From NCBI GenBank assembly GCA_020161615.1, contig JAIUPD010000004.1, positions 332,193 through 396,192 of the forward strand: a stretch of 64,000 nucleotides of DNA, read 5' to 3'. This stretch comes from Pseudomonadota bacterium. Its GTDB lineage: Bacteria; Pseudomonadota; Alphaproteobacteria; Rhodobacterales; Rhodobacteraceae. Of the stretch, positions 1-42,777 are shown in pieces. The notes under the pieces are model-generated. The model saw only the letters and a program-made list of their open reading frames with translations. It made no database searches and had not been told where the DNA came from. Position numbers and translations under genes: made by a program. Within the stretch, counting starts at the first letter, position 1. Every line of letters begins with the position of its first letter.

Positions 1-793
1 TCTTGTCGTCGAGGAACTGTTTCAGCCCGTGCTCGCGGCCCTTTTCCGGGTCCACGAAAGTCGTCTGGTCGGCCTTGGCGGTCAGGTATTCCGCCGCCTG
101 CTCCCAATCCATGTAGCGGGCGTATTTATAGGCCATGCGCGCCTGCCGCAGGACGGTCGGATTCTTGCCCAGTAGCACCTTGGCCAACTCGGTCGTGCGG
201 GCACGCAGCTGGTCGGCGGGCACGGCCTCGTTGATCAGGCCCATTTCCTCGGCCCTCCGGCCGTCGAATTTCTCGCCGGTCATGACGTAATACATCGCCT
301 TGCGGTCGCCCATCACGGTCGAGATGGCCTTCGACACCACGCCGCCCGGGATCACGCCCCAGTTGATTTCTGACAGGCCGAAGGTCGCGCCCTCATCGGC
401 AATCGCCAGATCGCAGCAGATCAGCGGCGTGAAGGCGCCGCCGAAGCACCAGCCGTTGACCATGGCGATCGTGGGCTTGGCGTAGTGGATCAGCCCCCGC
501 CATTGCCAGTAGCGGGTCGAGCGATAGGCGCGCATCCGCTCCACATCCGAGACGCCATCGGTCGCGCGGAAGAAATCCTTCAGGTCCATCCCGGCCGAAA
601 ACGCCTCGCCCACGCCGGTCAGCACGATGACGCCGCAGCGCTCATCTACCTCCAGCGCGTCGAGCGTGGCGCTCATTTCCTTGGCCAATCCCACCGACAT
701 GGCGTTGCGCTTTTCCGGGCGGTTCAGTTGCACCCAGGCGATGCCGTCTTCGAAGTCGACCAGAACGTCCTGGCCCCAGGGTTCGTTGGACAT
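1..793 (-). CDS. ech: Hydroxycinnamoyl-CoA hydratase/lyase (partial, C-terminus beyond window)
   Basis: Enoyl-CoA hydratase/isomerase superfamily (crotonase fold). It hydrates feruloyl- or p-coumaroyl-CoA and then cleaves it to the aromatic aldehyde plus acetyl-CoA in the cytoplasm. I translated the minus strand by hand from ATG at 793. The start is supported by a TAAGGAGA stop/ribosome-site overlap with the upstream aldehyde dehydrogenase. Visible motifs are LNRPEKRNAMS near residue 22, the oxyanion-hole segment SAGMDLKDFFR near residue 65, the family-typical VNGWCFGGAF near residue 110 and FGLSEINWGVIPGG. All of these also occur in known Ech/FerB proteins. About 264 codons are present and the frame is still open at base 1, so roughly the last 10-15 residues are missing. 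It is the third gene of a ferA-aldehyde dehydrogenase-ech operon and a paralogue of the gene at 8890-9738. Confidence 0.9.
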   Translation of the reverse strand, partial: MSNEPWGQDVLVDFEDGIAWVQLNRPEKRNAMSVGLAKEMSATLDALEVDERCGVIVLTGVGEAFSAGMDLKDFFRATDGVSDVERMRAYRSTRYWQWRGLIHYAKPTIAMVNGWCFGGAFTPLICCDLAIADEGATFGLSEINWGVIPGGVVSKAISTVMGDRKAMYYVMTGEKFDGRRAEEMGLINEAVPADQLRARTTELAKVLLGKNPTVLRQARMAYKYARYMDWEQAAEYLTAKADQTTFVDPEKGREHGLKQFLDDK

Positions 794-803
794 GGGGTTC
801 TCC

Positions 804-2252
804 TTAAGATTGACTGACGGTCTTGGTGACCAGATAGGCGTCCATCCCCTCGGTCCCGCCCTCGCTGCCGTAGCCGGATTGCTTGACGCCGCCGAAGGGG
901 GTTTCGGGCATGTTGATCATGACATTGTTGATGCCGAGCATCCCGGCCTCGACCCGGTCGGCCAGCGCCTGCGCGGTCGCCGTGTCGCGGGTGAAGGCAT
1001 AGGAGGCGAGGCCGAAGGGCAGGCGGTTGGCCTGATGGATCACCTCGTCCAGAGACTGGAACCGGGCGGTCACGGCGACGGGGCCGAAGGGCTCCTCGTT
1101 CATGATCCGGGCGGTGTCGGGGACATCGGTCAGGATGGTCGGCGCGAAGAAATTGCCCCGGTTGCCCAAGGCCTCGCCGCCCAGTCTGAGGCCTGCGCCG
1201 TGGTTCAGCGCATCCTCGACCAGCCCCTGCATGGCACTGATCCGGCGGGGATTGGCCAGCGGCCCCATGGTCGTGGCGGGGTCCATCCCGTCGCCAACTT
1301 TCAGCTTTTCGGCAGCGGCAGCGAAGCCCTCCACGAAACGGTCATGCACCGCCTCGTGAATATAGAAGCGGGTCGGCGCGATGCAGATCTGGCCGGCGTT
1401 GCGGAACTTCGCCCCGGCCAGCACCTGCACGGCGGCGTCCACATCGGCATCCTCGAAGATCATCACCGGCGCGTGGCCGCCCAATTCCATCGTCGCGCGC
1501 TTGACGCCCGCCTTGGCGGCCAGCACCGCCAGTTGCTGGCCGACGCCGGTCGAGCCGGTAAAGGTGATCTTGCGGATTTCCGGGGCGGCGATCAGGCGTT
1601 CGCTGACCTCGGCCGGGACGCCGCAGACGACGTTGAGCACGCCCTTCGGCAGGCCCGCATCGTCCAGCGCGCGGGCCAGTTCGATGACCGAGGCCGGGGT
1701 TTCCTCGGAGGGTTTGATGACCATGGTGCAGCCGGTCGCCAGCGCTGCCGAGATCTTGCGCGCCGGGATCACGGCGGGGAAGTTCCAGGGGGTGAAGGCG
1801 GCGACCGGGCCGACCGGCTCGCGCGTCACCATCCAGCGCATGCCGGCCACACGGGCGGGGACGATGCGGCCATAGGTCCGGCGGCCCTCGTCGGCGGTAT
1901 AGTCGAAGATATCGGCCGAGATCAGCGCCTCCAGCCGCGCCTCGGCGAAGGGCTTGCCCTGTTCCAGCGTCATCCGGCGGCCGATGTGGTCGGCGCGCTC
2001 GCGCAAGAGGGTCGCTGCCTTGCGCAGGATCATCGCCCGGTCATAGGCCGGCACCCGGCGCCAACTGGCGAAGGCCGCTTCCGCCGCCGCTGCCGCGCGG
2101 TCCAGATCCGCGGCGCTGGCATGGGGCAGCAGGCCCACCGGTTCGCCCGTCGCGGGGTTCAGCACCGGTTCGGTTACGCGGCCTTCGGTGCCCAGCCATT
2201 CACCGGCGATGAACAGCTGCAAGGGGCCGTAGCGGTCGTCGATCTTGGTCAT
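804..2252 (-). CDS. Aldehyde dehydrogenase, probable (hydroxy)benzaldehyde/vanillin dehydrogenase
   Basis: NAD(P)-dependent aldehyde dehydrogenase of 482 residues, closest in appearance to the succinate-semialdehyde dehydrogenase branch. The catalytic set is complete: PWNFP with Asn157, Lys180 in VIKPSEE, Glu256 in MELGGHAP and the nucleophile Cys290 in NAGQIC. Its position between the acyl-CoA synthetase and the hydratase/lyase (3 bp after one, 10 bp before the other) suggests it oxidises the aldehyde released by Ech, either 4-hydroxybenzaldehyde to 4-hydroxybenzoate or vanillin to vanillate. The substrate is inferred from context only; sequence alone would also fit succinate semialdehyde. 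Confidence 0.9.
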   Translation of the reverse strand: MTKIDDRYGPLQLFIAGEWLGTEGRVTEPVLNPATGEPVGLLPHASAADLDRAAAAAEAAFASWRRVPAYDRAMILRKAATLLRERADHIGRRMTLEQGKPFAEARLEALISADIFDYTADEGRRTYGRIVPARVAGMRWMVTREPVGPVAAFTPWNFPAVIPARKISAALATGCTMVIKPSEETPASVIELARALDDAGLPKGVLNVVCGVPAEVSERLIAAPEIRKITFTGSTGVGQQLAVLAAKAGVKRATMELGGHAPVMIFEDADVDAAVQVLAGAKFRNAGQICIAPTRFYIHEAVHDRFVEGFAAAAEKLKVGDGMDPATTMGPLANPRRISAMQGLVEDALNHGAGLRLGGEALGNRGNFFAPTILTDVPDTARIMNEEPFGPVAVTARFQSLDEVIHQANRLPFGLASYAFTRDTATAQALADRVEAGMLGINNVMINMPETPFGGVKQSGYGSEGGTEGMDAYLVTKTVSQS

Positions 2253-2255
2253 GGC

Positions 2256-4379
2256 TCACTCCGTCACGAAGAGGGCGTCGAGCGCGACCGCGCCCTCCGC
2301 ATGGACAACCAGCGGGTTGATATCGACCTCGAGGATCTGCGGATTGGCCCGCATCAGCGCGCCCAGCCGCACCGCCACCTCGGCCACCGCATCCACGTCG
2401 CGGGCGGGCTGACCGCGGAACGGGCCGAGCAGACGCGCGGATTTCAGCGACAGGATCTCGGCCTTGGCGCGGGCGAGGCTGACATCGGCCGGCATCAGGC
2501 GGGAATCGCGCAGCACCTCGATCCAGACGCCACCCAGACCGACCAGCACCATCGGCCCCCAGTTCGGGTCGCGCTTGGCGCCGATCACCAGTTCGAGGCC
2601 GGGCTGCACCATCTCCTCGACCAACACGCCGTCCAGCGTCAGGTCCGGCGCGGCGGCCTCAATATTGGCATGGAGCCGGTCCCATCCGGCGCGCAGCGCG
2701 GCCTCGTCCTTGAGGCCCACGATGACACCGCCCGCGTCGCTTTTGTGGCTCAGCTTGGCGGCTTGGGCCTTCAGGACCAGCGGGTAGCCGATGCGGTTGG
2801 CGATGGCGACGGCCTCGTCGGCGGTCCTCGCCATGCCGCCCTTCGGCACCGAGAGGCCCAGATCGGCGAGCACCTGCTTGCCGATATATTCCACCACCGC
2901 CCCGCCCTTGGGCAGGTCCAGTGCCGGTGCGGTCCTTGTGTCGCGATCCTCGGCGGCGACGCGGGCGGCGGCGTAATCGGCGACCAGCTTCATCGCCCGC
3001 ATGGCCCGTTCGGGCGAGCGGAAGAAGGGAATGCCGCAGGCCTTCACCTTCTCCACGAAGGCGGGCGCCAGCGGGTAATCGTCGCCGATCAGGCAGAAGA
3101 CGATGGGCTTGTCGGCCTGCTCATAGACCGGCAGCAGGTAGTCGATCTTCTTTTCCTGCATGGCGGGCGAGCCGCCGGCATGGACGCTGAGGATGATACC
3201 GACGCCCGGGTCCTTCAGCATCGCCGTGGCCGAGGTGCCGTAGATCCCGGGATTGGCAAAGCCCGTGGTGCCGATGTCGAAAGGGTTGTCGACATGGACA
3301 TAGGGCGGGACCTGTTCGGTCAGTTCGGCCGTAACCTCGGGCGTCAGCGTGGCGATGGGCAGGCCGATCGTCTCGCCGAAGTCGAAGGCGAGGCCGCGGA
3401 TCGCGCCCGAATTGGTGACGATGCCCGCGGCACCCGGGGCGGGGGCGGGGAAACGGGCGAGGATGGCGCAGGTGTCGAACATCTCGTCCAGCGTCGGCAC
3501 GCAGACCACGGCCTCGGCCCGGGCTGCGGCCAGCATCAGCGCGTGATCGCCCGCGAGCGCCCCGGTGTGGGATTCCGCCGCCTTCCGGCCCCGTTCGGAC
3601 GAGCCCGGGTGCAGCATGACGATGGGCTTGGCCAGCGCCCGCGCCCGGGCGGCGAGCGTCAGGAACCGCGCCGGGTCGCGCAGTTGTTCGACATAGACGG
3701 CGATGACGGCGATCTTGGCGTCATCGAGCGCGTGGTCGATGAAATCTTCGGCCCCCAGCAGCGCCTCGTTGCCGGTGGCCACGACATGCGAGATGGCGAC
3801 CGAGCGGGCCTGCAGCGCGAAGCGGATATTGGCCGCCGTGGCGCCCGACTGGGCGATGATCGCCACGCGTGAGCCCTGACCCACGTCATGCCTGGCGACC
3901 GGCTCGAAGGTCATTGGCACGCCGGCGACGAAATTGGTGTAGCCCATGCAGTTCGGACCCAGCAGCGCCACGCCCGCGTCAGCGCAAAGCTGCGCCAGTT
4001 CCTCCTGCGCGCGACGGCCGTCTTCGGAGGCCTCGGCAAAGCCCGAGGTGAAGATGACGATGGCGCCGACGCCCTGCGCGATACAGGCCACGACCGAGTC
4101 GCGGATCGCCTTGAAGGGCACGATCAGCACCGCGACATCGACGCCGTGCGGCAGGTCGGCCACCGATTTGACGCAGGGCCGGCCGTTGATCTCGTCGCGT
4201 GAGCGGCTGACGAGGTGGATGTCGCCGGTGAAGCCGAAAAGCTCCAGGTTCGACAGGACCCCGCCGCCCACCGAATCGCGTTCCGGCGTCGCGCCCAGGA
4301 TCGCCACCGAGCGCGGGTTGAGCAGGCGCTCGACGGCGCCCCGCGCGCTCCCCTCCGGTCTTGCAATTCCACCCATCAC
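2256..4379 (-). CDS. ferA: ADP-forming feruloyl/p-coumaroyl-CoA synthetase
   Basis: ADP-forming acyl-CoA synthetase of about 707 residues that would activate a hydroxycinnamate with CoA and ATP. Domain order: CoA-binding Rossmann domain (about 15-110, LNPRSVAILGATPERDSVGG), succinyl-CoA-ligase-like flavodoxin domains (about 150-450, with GPNCMGYTNF) and an ATP-grasp domain (about 490-705, IGYPLVLKAQAAKLSHKSDAGG). Size and layout match FerA of Sphingobium SYK-6 rather than the AMP-forming Fcs type; the assignment is supported by the downstream hydratase/lyase. The start is GTG 4379 or ATG 4376, preceded by GGGAGGGG. It is the first gene of its operon, and a TTGACA promoter carrying an operator lies 50-70 bp upstream. 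Homologues acting on other acids exist, so the substrate rests on context. Confidence 0.85.
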   Translation of the reverse strand: MMGGIARPEGSARGAVERLLNPRSVAILGATPERDSVGGGVLSNLELFGFTGDIHLVSRSRDEINGRPCVKSVADLPHGVDVAVLIVPFKAIRDSVVACIAQGVGAIVIFTSGFAEASEDGRRAQEELAQLCADAGVALLGPNCMGYTNFVAGVPMTFEPVARHDVGQGSRVAIIAQSGATAANIRFALQARSVAISHVVATGNEALLGAEDFIDHALDDAKIAVIAVYVEQLRDPARFLTLAARARALAKPIVMLHPGSSERGRKAAESHTGALAGDHALMLAAARAEAVVCVPTLDEMFDTCAILARFPAPAPGAAGIVTNSGAIRGLAFDFGETIGLPIATLTPEVTAELTEQVPPYVHVDNPFDIGTTGFANPGIYGTSATAMLKDPGVGIILSVHAGGSPAMQEKKIDYLLPVYEQADKPIVFCLIGDDYPLAPAFVEKVKACGIPFFRSPERAMRAMKLVADYAAARVAAEDRDTRTAPALDLPKGGAVVEYIGKQVLADLGLSVPKGGMARTADEAVAIANRIGYPLVLKAQAAKLSHKSDAGGVIVGLKDEAALRAGWDRLHANIEAAAPDLTLDGVLVEEMVQPGLELVIGAKRDPNWGPMVLVGLGGVWIEVLRDSRLMPADVSLARAKAEILSLKSARLLGPFRGQPARDVDAVAEVAVRLGALMRANPQILEVDINPLVVHAEGAVALDALFVTE

Positions 4380-4425: not shown

Positions 4426-4450
4426 TATCAGGGAGCCGTATATCTGTCAA
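4426..4450 (-). promoter_or_regulatory. ferA promoter with embedded MarR-type operator
   Basis: Reading the minus strand, TTGACA (4450-4445) is followed after 17 bp by TACCCA (4427-4422). The spacer contains the interrupted dyad TATCAGG-GAG-CCGTATA (plus-strand 4426-4442). The same dyad type recurs at 5396-5416 and 9780-9796. A repressor bound here would block RNA polymerase. I infer that the regulator is the MarR protein encoded at 9803-10252. Confidence 0.65.
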
Positions 4451-4479
4451 CGCGCCCCCTGATGCCCCGTCGCCGGTAC

Positions 4480-5205
4480 TCAGCCGCGGCCGAGGAAGGG
4501 CATGGTCACTGGCAGGATCGTGCTTTCGTAAAGGTTAACGTCATCGGGCAGCGATGCCATCAGCACCACGACGCGCGCAACGTCCGAGGCCGCCATGGTG
4601 CCCGGCCGCGGCTGGTCGGTGATGCCCGGCACCAGCGAGCTGACGGTGGAGCCGGGGTGCACCATCGACACGGCGATGCCATGCGGGCGGCCGTCCAGCG
4701 CCAGCGAATGGGTCAGCCCCTCGAGCCCGAATTTGGTCGCGGCATAGGCGGCGGTATCCGGGCGCGGCACCTTGGCCGAGATCGAGCCCACGTTGATCAC
4801 CCGCCCGCCGCCTGCCGGGATCATGGCGCGAAAGGCGGCCCGCGCCCCCAGGAAGACCGAGGTGAGGTTGATCGCTACAACCTCGGACCAGCGGTCGAGC
4901 GTCAGGTCCACGGTGGGCGTGTGATCGGCGATGCCGGCATTGTTGACCACCAGCCGGGGCGTACCGAAGGCTGCTTCACAGGCGGCAAACAGCGCTTCGA
5001 CCTGCGCCTCGTCGGTCATGTCGGTCGGAACGGCCAGCGCCGTGCCGCCCGCGGCCTCGATCCGGGCGACCAGCGCCCCCAGCTTGTCGGCGCTGCGCGC
5101 GGCAACGACGACCCGCGCCCCCTCGGCCGCCAGCCCTTCGGCGATGGCCAGCCCGATGCCCGAGCTTGCGCCCGTCACGATGGCGATACGATCCTTCAGC
5201 AGCAT
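4480..5205 (-). CDS. SDR-family NAD(P)-dependent oxidoreductase
   Basis: Classical short-chain dehydrogenase/reductase of 241 residues. It has the N-terminal cofactor motif TGASSGIG, the NNAG motif (VVNNAGIAD), a catalytic Ser in NVGSIS and the YAATK active site (YxxxK). The start is ATG 5205, preceded by GGGAGGAACAC; a longer reading frame from 5226 lacks such a site. Overall similarity is to the YdfG/serine-dehydrogenase-like group. It lies between two copies of the hydroxycinnamate operator, so it may reduce or oxidise an aromatic side-chain intermediate, but the substrate cannot be read from the sequence. Confidence 0.85.
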   Translation of the reverse strand: MLLKDRIAIVTGASSGIGLAIAEGLAAEGARVVVAARSADKLGALVARIEAAGGTALAVPTDMTDEAQVEALFAACEAAFGTPRLVVNNAGIADHTPTVDLTLDRWSEVVAINLTSVFLGARAAFRAMIPAGGGRVINVGSISAKVPRPDTAAYAATKFGLEGLTHSLALDGRPHGIAVSMVHPGSTVSSLVPGITDQPRPGTMAASDVARVVVLMASLPDDVNLYESTILPVTMPFLGRG

Positions 5206-5670
5206 GTGTTCCTCCCTGCCTGCCATGTTTCGGCCCCGACCCCGCGACCAGAATCAGCCCGGGGGTCACGGCAATCCTCCTGCGGTTGAACGCCGGTCGC
5301 CGCGGTCCCCGCCCCCGGAGGCGATCTGCCCGCTGGATCGGCCGCAGAAGGCGCGTCATCCGATATCGTATAAATTCATGTGACAGAGTTGAAGTTATAT
5401 TCGGGAGCCGAATATACAAAAAATCTGTTGTAATACAGATATTTGCGAATGGTTTACGCGAACGTTAAGCGTGAACTCGGCACGAATCACCGCGAAAATA
5501 CCTGTTGACTGCGGGGACCTGTGCCGCATGAATGAGGGCAGGAAGCGGTCGATCGACCGGGTTCCCGTTCGGATCGTACCCCGGCAAAAGGCGGGTCCGT
5601 TCCGACGAAATCCGGGTGCGACCGCCGCCGACACCGAGCGTGCCTCAGGGAGATTGGGAGGATTGACCCT
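5206..5670. other. Intergenic region between the SDR and tctC
   Basis: 465 bp with no supported gene. It is the most AT-rich stretch of the left half around 5370-5470. It contains the operator at 5396-5416 and a perfect 14-bp palindrome CGGTCGATCGACCG at 5546-5559. A ribosome site GGGAGG precedes tctC. If transcription of tctC starts near 5425, its leader is about 245 nt. Confidence 0.6.
5396..5416. promoter_or_regulatory. MarR-type operator, best copy, with candidate tctC promoter
   Basis: Perfect inverted repeat TATATTCGG-GAG-CCGAATATA (9-bp arms, 3-bp centre). On the plus strand TTGAAG (5389-5394) lies 18 bp before TATACA (5413-5418), so the dyad again fills a promoter spacer and points towards tctCBA. 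A minus-strand TATAAC beside the dyad could equally serve the SDR gene. Two sister sites are at 4426 and 9780. Confidence 0.65.
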
Positions 5671-6663
5671 ATGAAGGACCTGCTTACCACCACCCGCCGA
5701 CAGCTGCTATCGCTGGTCGGTGCCGCAGCCATGACCGCGGCCGTTTCGGCCCCGGCGCTGGCCCAGACCGGCGATTATCCGAACCGGCCGATCACCTTCA
5801 TCTGCGCCTTCCCGGCCGGGAGCGGCGCCGACACGCTGGTTCGCTATTTCGCCAATGCGATCCAGGAAGCGACCGGCCACACCATCATCGTCGACAACAA
5901 GCCGGGCGCGGCGGGGACGATCTCGGCCGAGTATGTCGCGCGGTCGGATCCCGACGGCTATACCGTCTATGTCCATTCGGGCTTTTCCACCGCCGTGAAC
6001 TATTCGCTGTGGAACAACCCGGCCATCGACCCGCGCACCGATCTGCGCGGCGTTGCCGGGATCAACGAACAGCCCTTCTTCATCGTCGTGGGCGTCGATT
6101 CGACGATCCAGTCGATCGAGGAGCTGAACGCCTATCTGCTGGCCGAGGGCGAGAATGCGACCTATGGCACGTCGGCCACCTCGGGGCGTCTGCTGGCCGC
6201 GCAATACCTGTCCGAACTGGGCGCCACTCCGACCGAAGTGCCCTATCGCACCGGGATCGAGATGGTGCCCGATGTCGTGAACCTGGCCGTCGATTTCGCC
6301 GTCACGGACCCGGTTACCGCCATGGTGCAGGCCCGCGAAGGCCGCCTGCGCGTGCTGGCGACCGGCTCGGGCTCGCGGATGGACATTGCCCCTGACGTGC
6401 CCTCGCTGACCGAATATGGCATGACCGTGGATCAGGTCGGCGTCTGGGCCGCCTGGGTGCCCGCCGGGACGCCCGACGATGTCGTCGCCACCCTGGCGGA
6501 GATGTTCGGCACGGTGATGCAGGAGCAGGAGACGCAGGACTTCCTGCGCACGATGGGCGGCGTTCCGTGGATCGCCACGCCCGAGGAAGTCGATCAGCGG
6601 ATGCGCGAGAACGTCGAGCAGGGCGCCTTCCTCGTCGATCTGGCGCAGCTGCCGCGCAACTGA
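5671..6663 (+). CDS. tctC: TTT transporter periplasmic substrate-binding protein (TctC family)
   Basis: Extracytoplasmic solute receptor of a tripartite tricarboxylate transporter, 330 residues (usual family size). The N-terminus carries a twin-arginine-like signal (TTRRQLLSLVG, then AVSAPALAQ cleavage site). The mature protein starts with the family signature YPNRPITFICAFPAGSGADTL and continues with NKPGAAGTI. It is followed by the small and large membrane subunits in one transcription unit. Members of this Bug-type family bind many carboxylates and aromatic acids. The shared operator with the ferA operon suggests a hydroxycinnamate or another aromatic acid as ligand, which is inference. Confidence 0.92.
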   Translation: MKDLLTTTRRQLLSLVGAAAMTAAVSAPALAQTGDYPNRPITFICAFPAGSGADTLVRYFANAIQEATGHTIIVDNKPGAAGTISAEYVARSDPDGYTVYVHSGFSTAVNYSLWNNPAIDPRTDLRGVAGINEQPFFIVVGVDSTIQSIEELNAYLLAEGENATYGTSATSGRLLAAQYLSELGATPTEVPYRTGIEMVPDVVNLAVDFAVTDPVTAMVQAREGRLRVLATGSGSRMDIAPDVPSLTEYGMTVDQVGVWAAWVPAGTPDDVVATLAEMFGTVMQEQETQDFLRTMGGVPWIATPEEVDQRMRENVEQGAFLVDLAQLPRN

Positions 6664-6778
6664 CCCGGGGCGCGCGTGACCGCGCCACCTGCACGAACCG
6701 GGCGTCGGGGGGCAGGGCTCTCCGACGCTCTTGCATGAGGGGCCCGACGCCAGGGTCCAAGGCACACGGGAGGTGCTT

Positions 6779-7237
6779 TTGAGCAGAATAAAGGCAGTCG
6801 ACATCCTGGCAGGGGGATTCGTCGTACTCATCGGCGTCCTTGCCATCGTTGAATCGACCAGTTTCGACATGGGCACCTCGCGCCGCATCGGGCCGGGATA
6901 TTTCCCGTTCTACGTGGGCATGCTGATGGTCCTCCTCGGCATCGCCATCGCGGTCGAGAATCTCTGGGCCAGAACCAGCAGCGACTTCGGCTGGAGCTTG
7001 CCGCCGATGCGCTCTCCCCTCCTGATCCTTGCCGCCGTCGCCGCCTTCGCGGTGATGATCGAACGCTTCGGCATGTTTCCGTCGATCTTCGCGGCGGTGT
7101 TCCTGGGCTCGCTGGCCGATACCAACACCGCGATCTGGCAGAAGCTGGCGATCTCGGTCGCCGTGCCCGTCGTCTGCGTCGTCATCTTCAAATACGGCCT
7201 GTCGCTCAACGTCGATGTCATCCGGTGGCGGCCATGA
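6779..7237 (+). CDS. tctB: TTT transporter small membrane subunit (TctB family)
   Basis: Small integral membrane component, 152 residues, with four hydrophobic segments (about 10-28, 45-62, 85-105 and 125-145). A TTG start at 6779 is preferred because GGGAGG sits five bases ahead of it at 6768-6773; the upstream ATG at 6731 lacks such a site and would add charged residues before the first membrane segment. Its TGA stop overlaps the tctA ATG (ATGA at 7234-7237), indicating translational coupling. Confidence 0.85.
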   Translation: MSRIKAVDILAGGFVVLIGVLAIVESTSFDMGTSRRIGPGYFPFYVGMLMVLLGIAIAVENLWARTSSDFGWSLPPMRSPLLILAAVAAFAVMIERFGMFPSIFAAVFLGSLADTNTAIWQKLAISVAVPVVCVVIFKYGLSLNVDVIRWRP

Positions 7238-8757
7238 GCGATTTTGCCTCGAACCTCGCGCTGGGCTTTTCGGTCGCCTTCTCGTGGCAGGCGATGTGGT
7301 ATTGCTTCGTCGGCGTCTCGCTGGGGACCTTCATCGGCGTCCTGCCGGGGATTGGCGCGCTGGCGGCCATCGCGCTGTTGCTGCCGCTGACCTTCGGCAT
7401 GGAACCGGCGCATGCGCTGATCATGCTGGCAGGCATCTATTACGGGTCGAATTACGGCGGCTCGACTGCCTCGATCCTGCTGAACCTGCCGGGCACGCCC
7501 TCGTCCGCCGTCACCTGCATCGAGGGCTATCCAATGTCCCAGCAGGGCCGGGCGGGTGTCGCGCTGTTCATGACGGCCATTGCGTCCTTCATCGGCTCGA
7601 TCTGCGGCATGCTGATCATGGCGATCTTCTCGCCGCCCATCGCCGCACTGGCTTTCAGCTTTTCCGCGCCCGAGTTCTTTTCGCTGATGGTGCTGGGCAT
7701 GGTCGCGGCCTCGACGCTGGCCTCGGGCTCGCCCCTCAAGGGGCTGGCGATGATCGGGCTGGGGCTGATCCTGGGCATGGTCGGGCGTGACCTCTACTCG
7801 GGGCTGCTGCGCTTTTCCTATGGCGTTGATCAGCTTTACGAAGGCCTGCCGCTGGTGGCCGTCGCCCTCGGCATCTTCGGCCTGCCCGAGGTGATCAAGA
7901 ACGCGGGCCAGATCACCGGCCGCACGGTCGAGGCGCGCTCGATCTCGTTCGCGTCCATGTGGCCGACGCGGGACGACTGGCGCCGCAGCTGGGGCGCGAT
8001 GTTTCGCGGCACCGGGCTGGGATCCTTCTTCGGCGCGTTGCCCGGCACCGGCGGCTTGCTGGCCAGCTTCATGTCCTACGCCACCGAGCGCCGGGTCGCC
8101 AAGGATCCGTCGCGCTTCGGCAAGGGTGCCATCGAGGGCATCGCCGGGCCCGAGGCCGCCAACAACGCCGCCGTGCAGACCGCCTTCATCCCGACGCTGA
8201 CGCTGGGCATTCCGGGCGATATCGTCATGGCGATCATGCTGGGGGCGCTGACCATCCACGGCATCCAGCCGGGCGTCTCGGTGATCAACAACCACCCGGA
8301 CCTGTTCTGGGGGCTGCTGGTCAGCTTCCTGCTGGGCAACTTCCTGCTGCTGATCCTGAACATCCCGCTGATCGGGCTCTGGGTGCGGATCCTCGCGATC
8401 CCCTATTGGGTGCTCTATCCGTTCATCATCGCCTTCATCTGCATCGGTGTTTACAGCGTCTCCAACTCGGTCGTGGACCTCTATGTGCTGATGTTCTTCG
8501 GCGTCCTCGGCATCGTGATGAACATCCTGCGGTTCGAACCGGCGCCCCTGGTGCTGGGGCTGATCCTGGGGCCGATGCTGGAGGAAAACCTGCGCCGCTC
8601 GCTCACGCTCTATCGCGGCAGCTATACGGTGTTCCTGACGCGGCCGATCTCGGCCCTGTTCATCGGCATCGCCGTGCTGATCCTGGCCTGGACGATCTAT
8701 GGCATGTTCCGCGCCCGGGCCCGCCGCCGGGCCGCGCTGGCCGCGGGCGAGGAGTGA
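7234..8757 (+). CDS. tctA: TTT transporter large permease (TctA family)
   Basis: Large permease of 507 residues with about 12 membrane segments. It shows the TctA signatures GTFIGVLPGIGALAAIALLLP near the N-terminus (shown in part), YYGSNYGGSTASILLNLPGTP and FGALPGTGGLLASFMSYATE. The ATG at 7234 overlaps the tctB stop. A strong terminator follows 20 bp downstream. It forms the translocation path for whatever TctC delivers. Confidence 0.93.
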   Translation: MSDFASNLALGFSVAFSWQAMWYCFVGVSLGTFIGVLPGIGALAAIALLLPLTFGMEPAHALIMLAGIYYGSNYGGSTASILLNLPGTPSSAVTCIEGYPMSQQGRAGVALFMTAIASFIGSICGMLIMAIFSPPIAALAFSFSAPEFFSLMVLGMVAASTLASGSPLKGLAMIGLGLILGMVGRDLYSGLLRFSYGVDQLYEGLPLVAVALGIFGLPEVIKNAGQITGRTVEARSISFASMWPTRDDWRRSWGAMFRGTGLGSFFGALPGTGGLLASFMSYATERRVAKDPSRFGKGAIEGIAGPEAANNAAVQTAFIPTLTLGIPGDIVMAIMLGALTIHGIQPGVSVINNHPDLFWGLLVSFLLGNFLLLILNIPLIGLWVRILAIPYWVLYPFIIAFICIGVYSVSNSVVDLYVLMFFGVLGIVMNILRFEPAPLVLGLILGPMLEENLRRSLTLYRGSYTVFLTRPISALFIGIAVLILAWTIYGMFRARARRRAALAAGEE

Positions 8758-8776
8758 GCGGACCCCCATGACGGAC

Positions 8777-8809
8777 AAAAGGGCGGCAGGGTAAACCTGC
8801 CGCCCTTTT
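8777..8809 (+). terminator. Rho-independent terminator of tctCBA
   Basis: Perfect 14-bp stem AAAAGGGCGGCAGG / CCTGCCGCCCTTTT around the loop GTAAA, ending in a T run. The A/T flanks would allow function in both directions. Confidence 0.9.
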
Positions 8810-8835
8810 CAGTGGGCGCCCGGGAGAGCGATACG

Positions 8836-8866
8836 AAAAAAGGGCGGCCGGATCGCCCCGCCGCCC
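8836..8866 (-). terminator. Terminator of the second ech gene
   Basis: Read on the minus strand: GGGCGGC, an 11-nt loop, GCCGCCC, then TTTTTT. It lies 24 bp past the stop of the gene at 8890-9738. Confidence 0.8.
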
Positions 8867-8889
8867 CTGTTCGTGCCGATGGGCTGCGG

Positions 8890-9738
8890 TCAGTCGCCGC
8901 TGCGATCATAAGCGCCCAGACCCGGGCGATAGCGCTTCTCGTCGATGAACTGGCTCATGCCCTTGGCCGCGCCCTGCGTCCGGTCGCGGAAGGTCGTGGA
9001 ATCGGCCTTGGCCATCAGGTATTCCAGCGCCTGATCCCAGCCCATCTGCCGGACATGGTGATAGGCAGTCTTGGCGCCCCGCAGCACATGCTGGTTCTTG
9101 CCCCGCAGGGTCTGCGCCAGTTTCGTGACCTCGGCATGCAGCTGGTCGGCCGGGACCGCCTTGTTCACCAGCTTCATCTCGGCGGCCTGTTTGCCGTCGA
9201 AGGTCTCGCCGGTCATGATGTAATACATCGCGTCGCGCTGGCTCATCACCATGGACACCGATTTCGTCACGATGCCGGCGGGAATGATGCCCCAGTTGAT
9301 TTCCGACAGGCCGAAGGTCGCATCCTCGGCCGCGATCGCCAGATCGCAGCCAATCAGGATCTGGAAGGCGCCACCGAAGCACCAGCCGTTGACCGCGGCA
9401 ATGGTCGGCTTCCTGTAGAACATGGTCCGGCGCCATTGCCAGGCCGCGTTCATCGCGAAGAGCCGGTCGCGCTCATGCGGCGGCCAGGCCTCGGTCTCGC
9501 GGAAATATTCCTTCAGGTCCTGCCCGGCGGAGAAGGCATTCCCGGCGCCGGTGACGACGATCACCTCGGCCTCGTCCATGCCTTCCAGCGCATCCATCAC
9601 CGCCGTCATCTCATAGACGATGCCCGGGTTGATGGCGTTGCGCTTGTCGGGGCGGTTCAGGGTGACCCAGGCCACGCCGTCCTCGATGGCGAGGGTGACA
9701 TTCTCCCCCCAGCCCTTGCCTGCACCACCGTGACTCAT
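8890..9738 (-). CDS. ech: Hydroxycinnamoyl-CoA hydratase/lyase, second copy
   Basis: Crotonase-fold enzyme of 282 residues, full length for p-hydroxycinnamoyl-CoA hydratase/lyase. Key segments are LNRPDKRNAINPG, FSAGQDLKEYFRE, PTIAAVNGWCFGGAF and TFGLSEINWGIIPAG, with the YYIMTGETFDG stretch typical of Ech. It is clearly paralogous to the gene at 1-793 but diverged across the first 50 residues and around the oxyanion loop. It is transcribed alone, divergently from marR, with an operator between the two. CAGGGAG lies just ahead of ATG 9738. It may favour a different ring substitution (coumaroyl versus feruloyl) or may be redundant. Confidence 0.92.
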   Translation of the reverse strand: MSHGGAGKGWGENVTLAIEDGVAWVTLNRPDKRNAINPGIVYEMTAVMDALEGMDEAEVIVVTGAGNAFSAGQDLKEYFRETEAWPPHERDRLFAMNAAWQWRRTMFYRKPTIAAVNGWCFGGAFQILIGCDLAIAAEDATFGLSEINWGIIPAGIVTKSVSMVMSQRDAMYYIMTGETFDGKQAAEMKLVNKAVPADQLHAEVTKLAQTLRGKNQHVLRGAKTAYHHVRQMGWDQALEYLMAKADSTTFRDRTQGAAKGMSQFIDEKRYRPGLGAYDRSGD

Positions 9739-9779
9739 TGTCAGACTCCCTGAGTTCCACTACGCTTTGAGGGAGACCA

Positions 9780-9798
9780 TATCAGGGTGCCTTATACT
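9780..9798. promoter_or_regulatory. MarR-type operator between ech and marR
   Basis: Dyad TATCAGG-GTG-CCTTATA at 9780-9796. Its right arm overlaps TATACT (9793-9798), a good -10 hexamer for marR that ends only four bases before the marR ATG. This predicts autoregulation and a leaderless or nearly leaderless marR transcript. The nearest -35-like hexamer, TTGAGG at 9767, has a long 20-bp spacer. Confidence 0.65.
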
Positions 9799-9802
9799 GT
9801 CA

Positions 9803-10252
9803 ATGTCCGAAAACATCGCTTTGTCCGACCTTCGCCCCCGGCTGATCTATCTGGTCAACAACATCAACCTGCTGACCCGCAAATCGCTGGACGAGCGCCT
9901 GAAGGCGCATCAGCTGGGCGGGCTGCAATACACGATCCTGACGCTGGTGCGGGACCGGGAGGGGATCTCCTCGGCCGAATTGTCGCGCCGGTTCTTCGTC
10001 ACGCCACAGACGATGAACGAAAGCGTCACGGCGCTGGAACGCCGGGGCCTGATCACCCGTTCCGAGAGCGAGGCGAACAAGCGCATCCTCTGCGCCCGGA
10101 TCACCGACGAGGGCCGCGCTTTGCTGACGCAATGCGATGCCATCGCCAACGAGGTCGAGGCCGAGGTCTTTGGCAGCGTCAGCCCCGCCGACATGAAGGT
10201 GCTGCACCGCATCCTGCGCGACCAGCTGCACCGCCTGATGCAGCAGGTCTAG
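9803..10252 (+). CDS. MarR-family transcriptional regulator, probable hydroxycinnamoyl-CoA-responsive repressor
   Basis: Winged-helix MarR protein of 149 residues. The helices include RKSLDERLKAHQLGGLQYTIL, the recognition region SSAELSRRFFVTPQTMNESV and the wing GLITRSESEANKRILCARIT. I chose ATG 9803 over TTG 9767 because the latter would place the operator inside the coding region. MarR proteins such as FerC and CouR control hydroxycinnamate genes and respond to the CoA thioesters; this, the adjacent ech gene and the three operator copies support that role. Its TAG overlaps the stop of the convergent monooxygenase. Confidence 0.85.
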   Translation: MSENIALSDLRPRLIYLVNNINLLTRKSLDERLKAHQLGGLQYTILTLVRDREGISSAELSRRFFVTPQTMNESVTALERRGLITRSESEANKRILCARITDEGRALLTQCDAIANEVEAEVFGSVSPADMKVLHRILRDQLHRLMQQV

Positions 10253-42656: not shown

Positions 42657-42777
42657 CGAAATCCTCCCTAGGGTTCGCTTCGCGACACCGGCCAAGGCCG
42701 GAGGCGCGTCGTGCATGTCAGTCATCCAGATATTGCCGCGCTTGTAAAGTTGACACCCCCTCTCGATCCAGGTGCCA

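Follow-up and report, generated by a model that had tools for sequence, protein, structure and literature searches.

Most characterised regulators of the MarR family are repressors (PMC4737184), and the regulators of this family usually bind palindromes of 16 to 20 bp (PMC10458429). FerC from Sphingobium sp. SYK-6 is a MarR-type regulator of ferulate genes, and its binding to the operator is inhibited by hydroxycinnamoyl-coenzyme A (CoA) (PMC5487221); it is likened to the system treated here by its description only. CouR from Rhodopseudomonas palustris is likewise a MarR repressor and joins catabolic genes and uptake systems (PMC3610893). We analysed a stretch of 64,000 nucleotides (the window) from a bacterium of the Rhodobacteraceae (assembly GCA_020161615.1, contig JAIUPD010000004.1, positions 332,193 to 396,192), in which an inverted repeat occurs at the promoters of a ferA-like operon, of tct transporter genes and of the divergent genes ech2 and marR. 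From the sequence it is very probable that the marR gene encodes an autoregulated repressor of a hydroxycinnamate regulon including a tripartite tricarboxylate transporter (TTT) and a mandelate-type branch, and that the three sites are its operators. The names ferA, vdh and sdr were taken from an earlier note on this DNA (the original prediction) or from the protein family and denote predicted functions.

A rare operator at three promoters

The operators were read from the window sequence as TATCAGGGAGCCGTATA (operator 1), TATTCGGGAGCCGAATA (operator 2) and TATCAGGGTGCCTTATA (operator 3), with the positions listed in Table 1. All three had been named at this locus in the original prediction, which placed the core of operator 2 at 5396; this core begins two bases later, at 5398, and belongs to a 19-bp palindrome of 8-3-8 layout starting at 5397. 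The strict pattern TATnnGG-GnG-CCnnATA (TATnnGGGnGCCnnATA) has three perfect matches in the genome of 4,866,760 bases, all in this locus. This genome scan had been set beforehand as a possible refutation, and it revealed no perfect copies at unrelated genes. At up to one mismatch the strict pattern finds six forward and two reverse places (five beyond the perfect three), a total no higher than that of the reversed-pattern control (7 + 4). With the centre freed (TATnnGGnnnCCnnATA), four exact places were obtained genome-wide, the three operators of the window and C10:85844. The latter, located between a LysR gene and a gene for a Cys/Met pyridoxal-phosphate enzyme, was taken as a chance match or a LysR site. 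At up to one mismatch the relaxed pattern is at background (32 places versus 36 for the control), so that only the exact matches and their locations are informative. Using a simple open reading frame caller, 16 of 20 one-mismatch places (20 of 28 were fetched) fell within genes, a weak count because the caller misplaced C4:323265, which really lies 5' of an aldehyde dehydrogenase gene, and chose antisense frames elsewhere.

Comparison with related loci gave the sharper consensus TATmAGG-n3-CCTkATA. Both half-sites are kept in relatives. The GnG centre of the proposed form, although present in the three perfect copies, is variable there and lies outside the conserved signal; it was dropped from the motif for this reason. 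A weight matrix was derived from 30 relatives' sites; the window and locus L009 (Pararhodobacter aggregans, 93-98% protein identity) were left out, and locus L010 comes from a congener. The matrix has a free 3-bp centre, A or C and then A following TAT, and A/T flanks, and it scores operators 1, 2 and 3 with 24.0, 15.7 and 28.5 bits. When the relatives' consensus was searched in the genome under study, 14 places with at most three mismatches were found (control: 5). Three of these have at most two mismatches, C4:323264, 336617 and 341971, corresponding to an upstream aldehyde dehydrogenase gene, ferA and ech2/marR, and all are in the cluster.

Some further sequences resemble the operator. The site TGTCAGTCATCCAGATA at 42716-42732 is isolated, has one altered GG letter and scores 19.1 bits with the relatives' matrix; two more matches outside the cluster are C4:110840 (18.0 bits) and C17:1366 (17.4 bits). 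An imperfect inverted repeat, TGTCAGACTCCCTGA, is located at 9739-9755 just 5' of the ech2 start, scores 11.4 bits and overlaps the likely ribosome-binding site. It is similar in L009-L011 and L013 and weaker in L012.

Promoter geometry

Each operator of the window is flanked by the -35 and -10 boxes of a promoter and lies 1-3 bp past TTGACA or TTGAAG. At this short distance it occupies the whole spacer and extends to the -10 box. The ferA promoter consists of TTGACA, a spacer of 17 bp and a weak -10 box (TACCCA), the first two bases of which are overlapped by operator 1. At tctC, TTGAAG (5389-5394) ends 3 bp before operator 2 and is followed after 18 bp by TATACA, and the ech2 promoter has TTGACA, a spacer of 16 bp and TATGGT. 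The marR -10 box TATACT (9793-9798) falls in the right half of operator 3; a good -35 box for marR was not seen by eye. These boxes agree with the original placement of site 1 between promoter elements, site 2 between candidate elements and site 3 over a -10 box. The marR start codon shares its first base with the ech2 -35 box. The position of the marR -10 box inside the operator, with the ATG within bases of it, suggests that translation of marR may be leaderless or nearly so. The marR gene of several Rhizobiales seems to start with a TTG right after the operator.

Among 198 genomes of the family, the arrangement TTGACA-N(1-3)-motif occurs in two, namely in this genome (ferA and ech2) and as one match identical to the ech2 site of L012. 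In a wider set of 63 distinct relatives' sites with at least 20 bits, a TTGACA-like box (at least five of six letters, either strand) is present 0-4 bp from 26 sites, compared with 2.6% of random positions, and in 9 of the 35 sites that were left out of the matrix; these counts are not independent, since many sites are orthologous.

Conservation in relatives

For the analysis of related loci, GTDB genomes were searched with the MarR protein via six peptide patterns including FFVTPQTM, which yielded 39 marR loci with 703 kb. L009 has kept all three operators, and sites 1 and 3 are found at the same places in L010-L013. In 18 of the 39 loci, across genera, marR has a site no more than about 220 bp upstream (at most one mismatch in the 10 fixed bases). 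Ten of the loci contain the exact motif, with 17 occurrences in all, and 319 palindromic control motifs of the same composition average 0.34 sites with a maximum of 10. At up to one mismatch there are 54 sites in 25 loci, with a control average of 11.8 sites. On the basis of the genome-wide rarity, these control motifs and the placement of the consensus matches within the cluster, chance recurrence was rejected as an explanation.

A search with TATMAGGNNNCCTKATA at up to one mismatch was performed in 28 genomes of relatives (29 loci had been requested, and the genome of L010 is not among them). It gave 81 matches versus 21 for the reversed control, and 25 of the 28 genomes have a site. All listed sites are within one marR-containing stretch of 22-26 kb in G198 (4/4), G200 (4/4), G205 (5/5) and G206 (5/5). 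In G199 three of four listed sites are in the cluster. The fourth stands some 35 bp ahead of a tctC-like gene (40% identity), counted from its presumed start, and the gene after it resembles an AMP-forming CoA ligase by eye. Several of the 28 genomes also carry sites elsewhere.

The transporter genes are part of this pattern. The operator is found before tct genes in L018, L019 and L024, and Wenxinia has it before a tctC-like gene. Among 11 Rhizobium/Neorhizobium-type genomes, which include one Xaviernesmea and one other member of the Rhizobiales, eight carry it between a flavin monooxygenase gene and the tct genes; these eight were fetched because the search had shown sites. In Mesorhizobium-type loci marR follows tct genes that carry the operator. 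The operator thus recurs at promoters of genes predicted to serve the uptake and degradation of plant phenolic acids, beside the gene of its probable repressor, which speaks for a common regulatory circuit of a type already known.

Three Halomonas loci (L044-L046) encode a MarR homologue that is divergent (35-38% identity) and have operator-like sites close by. The genes of L044 include a LigXa-type Rieske oxygenase, an amidohydrolase, a ferA-like ligase and acyl-CoA dehydrogenases.

The MarR protein

The marR product contains a MarR winged-helix domain (Pfam MarR), and its structure model has the MarR fold with a mean pLDDT of 92.3. The best match by single sequence is HcaR; by profile Rv2887 is ahead of HcaR, and CouR (5cyv) matches with E 3.3e-8. 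None of the named MarR equivalogs of NCBIfam, such as Saro_0803 and HpaR, was reached (best score 42.1 bits, cut-off 200). The recognition helix is invariant in an alignment of 37 proteins.

A different regulator could occupy the operator, with MarR being merely a neighbour. The genome has 13 MarR-family matches at E ≤ 0.001, this gene included, and further upstream in the cluster there is a gene that looks IclR-like by eye. The low identity (19-32%) of the other MarR matches to this one, the recurrence of the site just upstream of marR in multiple genera, the operator-bearing tct genes followed by marR in Mesorhizobium-type loci and the usual form of MarR targets argue against such an arrangement, which we regard as very improbable. 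Control by the neighbouring MarR protein is preferred.

Limits of the evidence and the status of operator 2

Several observations weigh against control of all three sites by MarR. In the 39 loci, one of the 319 controls ties with the exact motif by number of loci, and at up to one mismatch the motif is equalled or exceeded by 6 of 319 controls by sites and by 12 of 319 by loci. In 21 of the 39 loci no site just before marR was found at this threshold, and three of the 28 genomes (G218, G220 and G221) have no TATMAGGNNNCCTKATA site at up to one mismatch. A TTGACA-like box is missing at 37 of the 63 relatives' sites, including seven of eight Halomonas sites and the Rhizobium/Neorhizobium-type tct sites. 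The constancy of TAT, GG, CC and ATA in the matrix is partly circular, because the 30 sites were selected at up to one mismatch to the originally proposed fixed letters; positions between and outside these letters are free of this circularity. Likewise, the invariance of the recognition helix is partly a matter of selection, as the loci were found via peptides including FFVTPQTM, and the model fold ties about equally with many MarR proteins (VIA-align).

The remaining points concern operator 2, by sequence the weakest of the three. It is the most divergent copy, with half-sites that read TTCGG in place of TMAGG, and it was missed by the search with the relatives' consensus because of four mismatches to it. 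Nothing comparable was found between sdr and tctC in L011-L013, which also belong to the Rhodobacteraceae, and seven exact 8-3-8 palindromes exist in the 64-kb window. Together with the low matrix score these data would fit a situation in which MarR has its operators at sites 1 and 3 only, site 2 being a palindrome formed by chance or the target of another regulator, so that the transporter would be outside the regulon in this organism. We consider this unlikely. When the region between sdr and tctC is shuffled by mononucleotides, an exact 8-3-8 palindrome turns up in 0.5% of cases. Site 2 has GGGAGCC in common with site 1 and the same layout of -35 box and site, and L009 keeps it, as does L010 in altered form. 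In addition, the operator stands before the tct genes in Rhizobiales and before the tctC-like gene in Wenxinia.

A larger predicted regulon and the proposed mechanism

A fourth site with the layout TTGACA-N1-operator lies outside the window, some 9 kb upstream of its first base (C4:323265; C4:323264 in the consensus search). It precedes an operon of genes for an aldehyde dehydrogenase, a thiamine-diphosphate (TPP) enzyme, an FMN dehydrogenase and an FAD dehydrogenase. The best solved match of the TPP enzyme is benzoylformate decarboxylase (E 6e-25). The FMN dehydrogenase matches L-lactate oxidase best (E 1.3e-80), with (S)-mandelate dehydrogenase at E 9.1e-70, and the FAD dehydrogenase matches D-lactate dehydrogenase (E 3.7e-141). 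A gene with molybdopterin-binding domains is divergent from this operon. A weak fifth site (C4:318710, 17.0 bits) precedes a thioesterase gene. Equivalent sites are present before the aldehyde dehydrogenase and thioesterase genes in G198 and G200; G199 has the one before the thioesterase gene, and no matching aldehyde dehydrogenase gene was found in the stretch fetched. The proposed local hydroxycinnamate regulon with a transporter is backed by the relatives' operators before ferA, ech/marR and tct, but it extends beyond three promoters.

We propose that a MarR dimer binds the two half-sites TATmAGG and CCTkATA around the 3-bp centre in the promoter spacer. Bound MarR would occlude RNA polymerase at ferA-vdh-ech1, at tctCBA (probably also at sdr) and at ech2, and would block its own promoter, which amounts to autoregulation. 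The same protein would also control the upstream operon of aldehyde dehydrogenase, benzoylformate-decarboxylase-like enzyme and two 2-hydroxyacid dehydrogenases. By analogy to FerC, CouR and HcaR (PMC5487221), an aromatic intermediate, most likely hydroxycinnamoyl-CoA, would release MarR from the DNA.

Another inducer is conceivable because the mandelate-type operon is preceded by the same operator. A shared downstream compound, an aromatic aldehyde or acid, is the less probable choice but has to be taken seriously: the ligand bound by HcaR appears to be unesterified, and crystals of this protein were obtained with protocatechuate (PMC5487221) and, according to PDB titles, with vanillin and ferulic acid. 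FerC and CouR respond to CoA thioesters, as was first reported for HcaR (PMC5487221), and ferA and both hydratase/lyase genes are under the operator, which favours hydroxycinnamoyl-CoA.

A further extension of the model is speculative. One MarR protein might govern a combined side-chain funnel for hydroxycinnamates and aryl 2-hydroxy acids of both hands, fed by the TTT importer, with an ester, for example a rosmarinate-like one, as natural substrate. The ester of hydroxycinnamate and aryl lactate would be cleaved by the alpha/beta hydrolase encoded nearby. The hydroxycinnamate part would pass through CoA ligase and hydratase/lyase, the aryl 2-hydroxy acids through the mandelate- and D-lactate-dehydrogenase-like enzymes, the benzoylformate-decarboxylase-like enzyme and aldehyde dehydrogenase. 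Such joint control, conserved across Rhodobacteraceae and Rhizobiales, would be in keeping with one natural substrate that gives both parts.

Genes of the locus

Table 1. Operators, promoter boxes and genes of the locus (window positions).
Feature	Position	Strand	Remarks
ech1, p-hydroxycinnamoyl-CoA hydratase/lyase	1..793, runs past window start	-	NF006588 388 bits, cut-off 276
vdh-like aldehyde dehydrogenase	804..2252	-	Pfam Aldedh 539 bits
ferA-like acyl-CoA ligase, NDP-forming (acetate-CoA-ligase) family	2256..4379	-	Pfam ATP-grasp_5, Succ_CoA_lig, CoA_binding_2
operator 1	4426..4442	-	ferA-vdh-ech1 promoter spacer; perfect motif; same place in L009-L013
-35 box TTGACA of ferA	4445..4450	-	2 bp before operator 1
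SDR-family oxidoreductase (sdr)	4480..5226	-	Pfam adh_short
operator 2	5398..5414	+	between divergent sdr and tctC, in TTGAAG-N18-TATACA toward tctC
tctC, TTT solute-binding protein	5671..6663	+	Pfam TctC
tctB, TTT small membrane protein	6731..7237	+	Pfam TctB
tctA, TTT large membrane protein	7225..8757	+	Pfam TctA 515 bits
ech2, second p-hydroxycinnamoyl-CoA hydratase/lyase	8890..9738	-	NF006588 388 bits, cut-off 276
operator 3	9780..9796	.	ech2 promoter spacer and over marR -10
-35 box TTGACA of ech2	9798..9803	-	1 bp from operator 3
marR, MarR-family regulator of 149 amino acids, probable repressor	9803..10252	+	Pfam MarR

The transporter is a complete TTT system, as TctA, TctB and TctC (PF01970, PF07331 and PF03401) are all present above the cut-offs. 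The whole genome has two NF006588 genes above the cut-off, both in this cluster beside marR and the ferA-like ligase gene. These two hydratase/lyase paralogues are in separate operons of one predicted regulon, and ech1 is about 57-61% identical to the ech2-type genes of relatives. A gene for a double acyl-CoA dehydrogenase of 749 amino acids, located past ech1 and outside the window, is probably also part of the ferA operon. On the minus strand at 10249-13340 genes for an FAD monooxygenase, an alpha/beta hydrolase and a VOC-family protein follow; no operator was seen upstream of them here, and the similar genes (53-80% identity) of Mesorhizobium, Aminobacter and Rhizobium-type loci are interspersed with operators.

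Comparison with known systems

Among the literature matches listed, no account of this operator or of a TTT transporter for hydroxycinnamates was recognisable by title or abstract. As far as our searches go, what is new relative to these matches is the TTT transporter together with the mandelate-type branch. The operator provides a testable signal for a MarR clade outside every NCBIfam equivalog, ties a mandelate-type branch to the same predicted switch and could be built into a biosensor for monomers derived from lignin.

The prediction that a TTT transporter serves hydroxycinnamate catabolism sets the locus apart from R. palustris, where the transporters under CouR are of the ATP-binding cassette (CouPSTU) and tripartite ATP-independent periplasmic types (PMC3610893); as a single sequence, this CouR is a weak match to the MarR protein studied here (6c28, E 3.1e-4). 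From the HcaR system of Acinetobacter baylyi ADP1 the gene set differs by the TTT transporter and the mandelate-type operon. CouR from Rhodococcus jostii RHA1 recognises the box cATTGA-N5-TCAATg, which is unlike TATmAGG-n3-CCTkATA when the consensuses are compared by eye, and it is linked to a beta-oxidative pathway, unlike the locus here. Judged by its gene order and sites, the locus is predicted to work like the FerC, HcaR and CouR regulons, with inverted-repeat operators at the target promoters and a MarR gene beside the ligase and hydratase/lyase genes.

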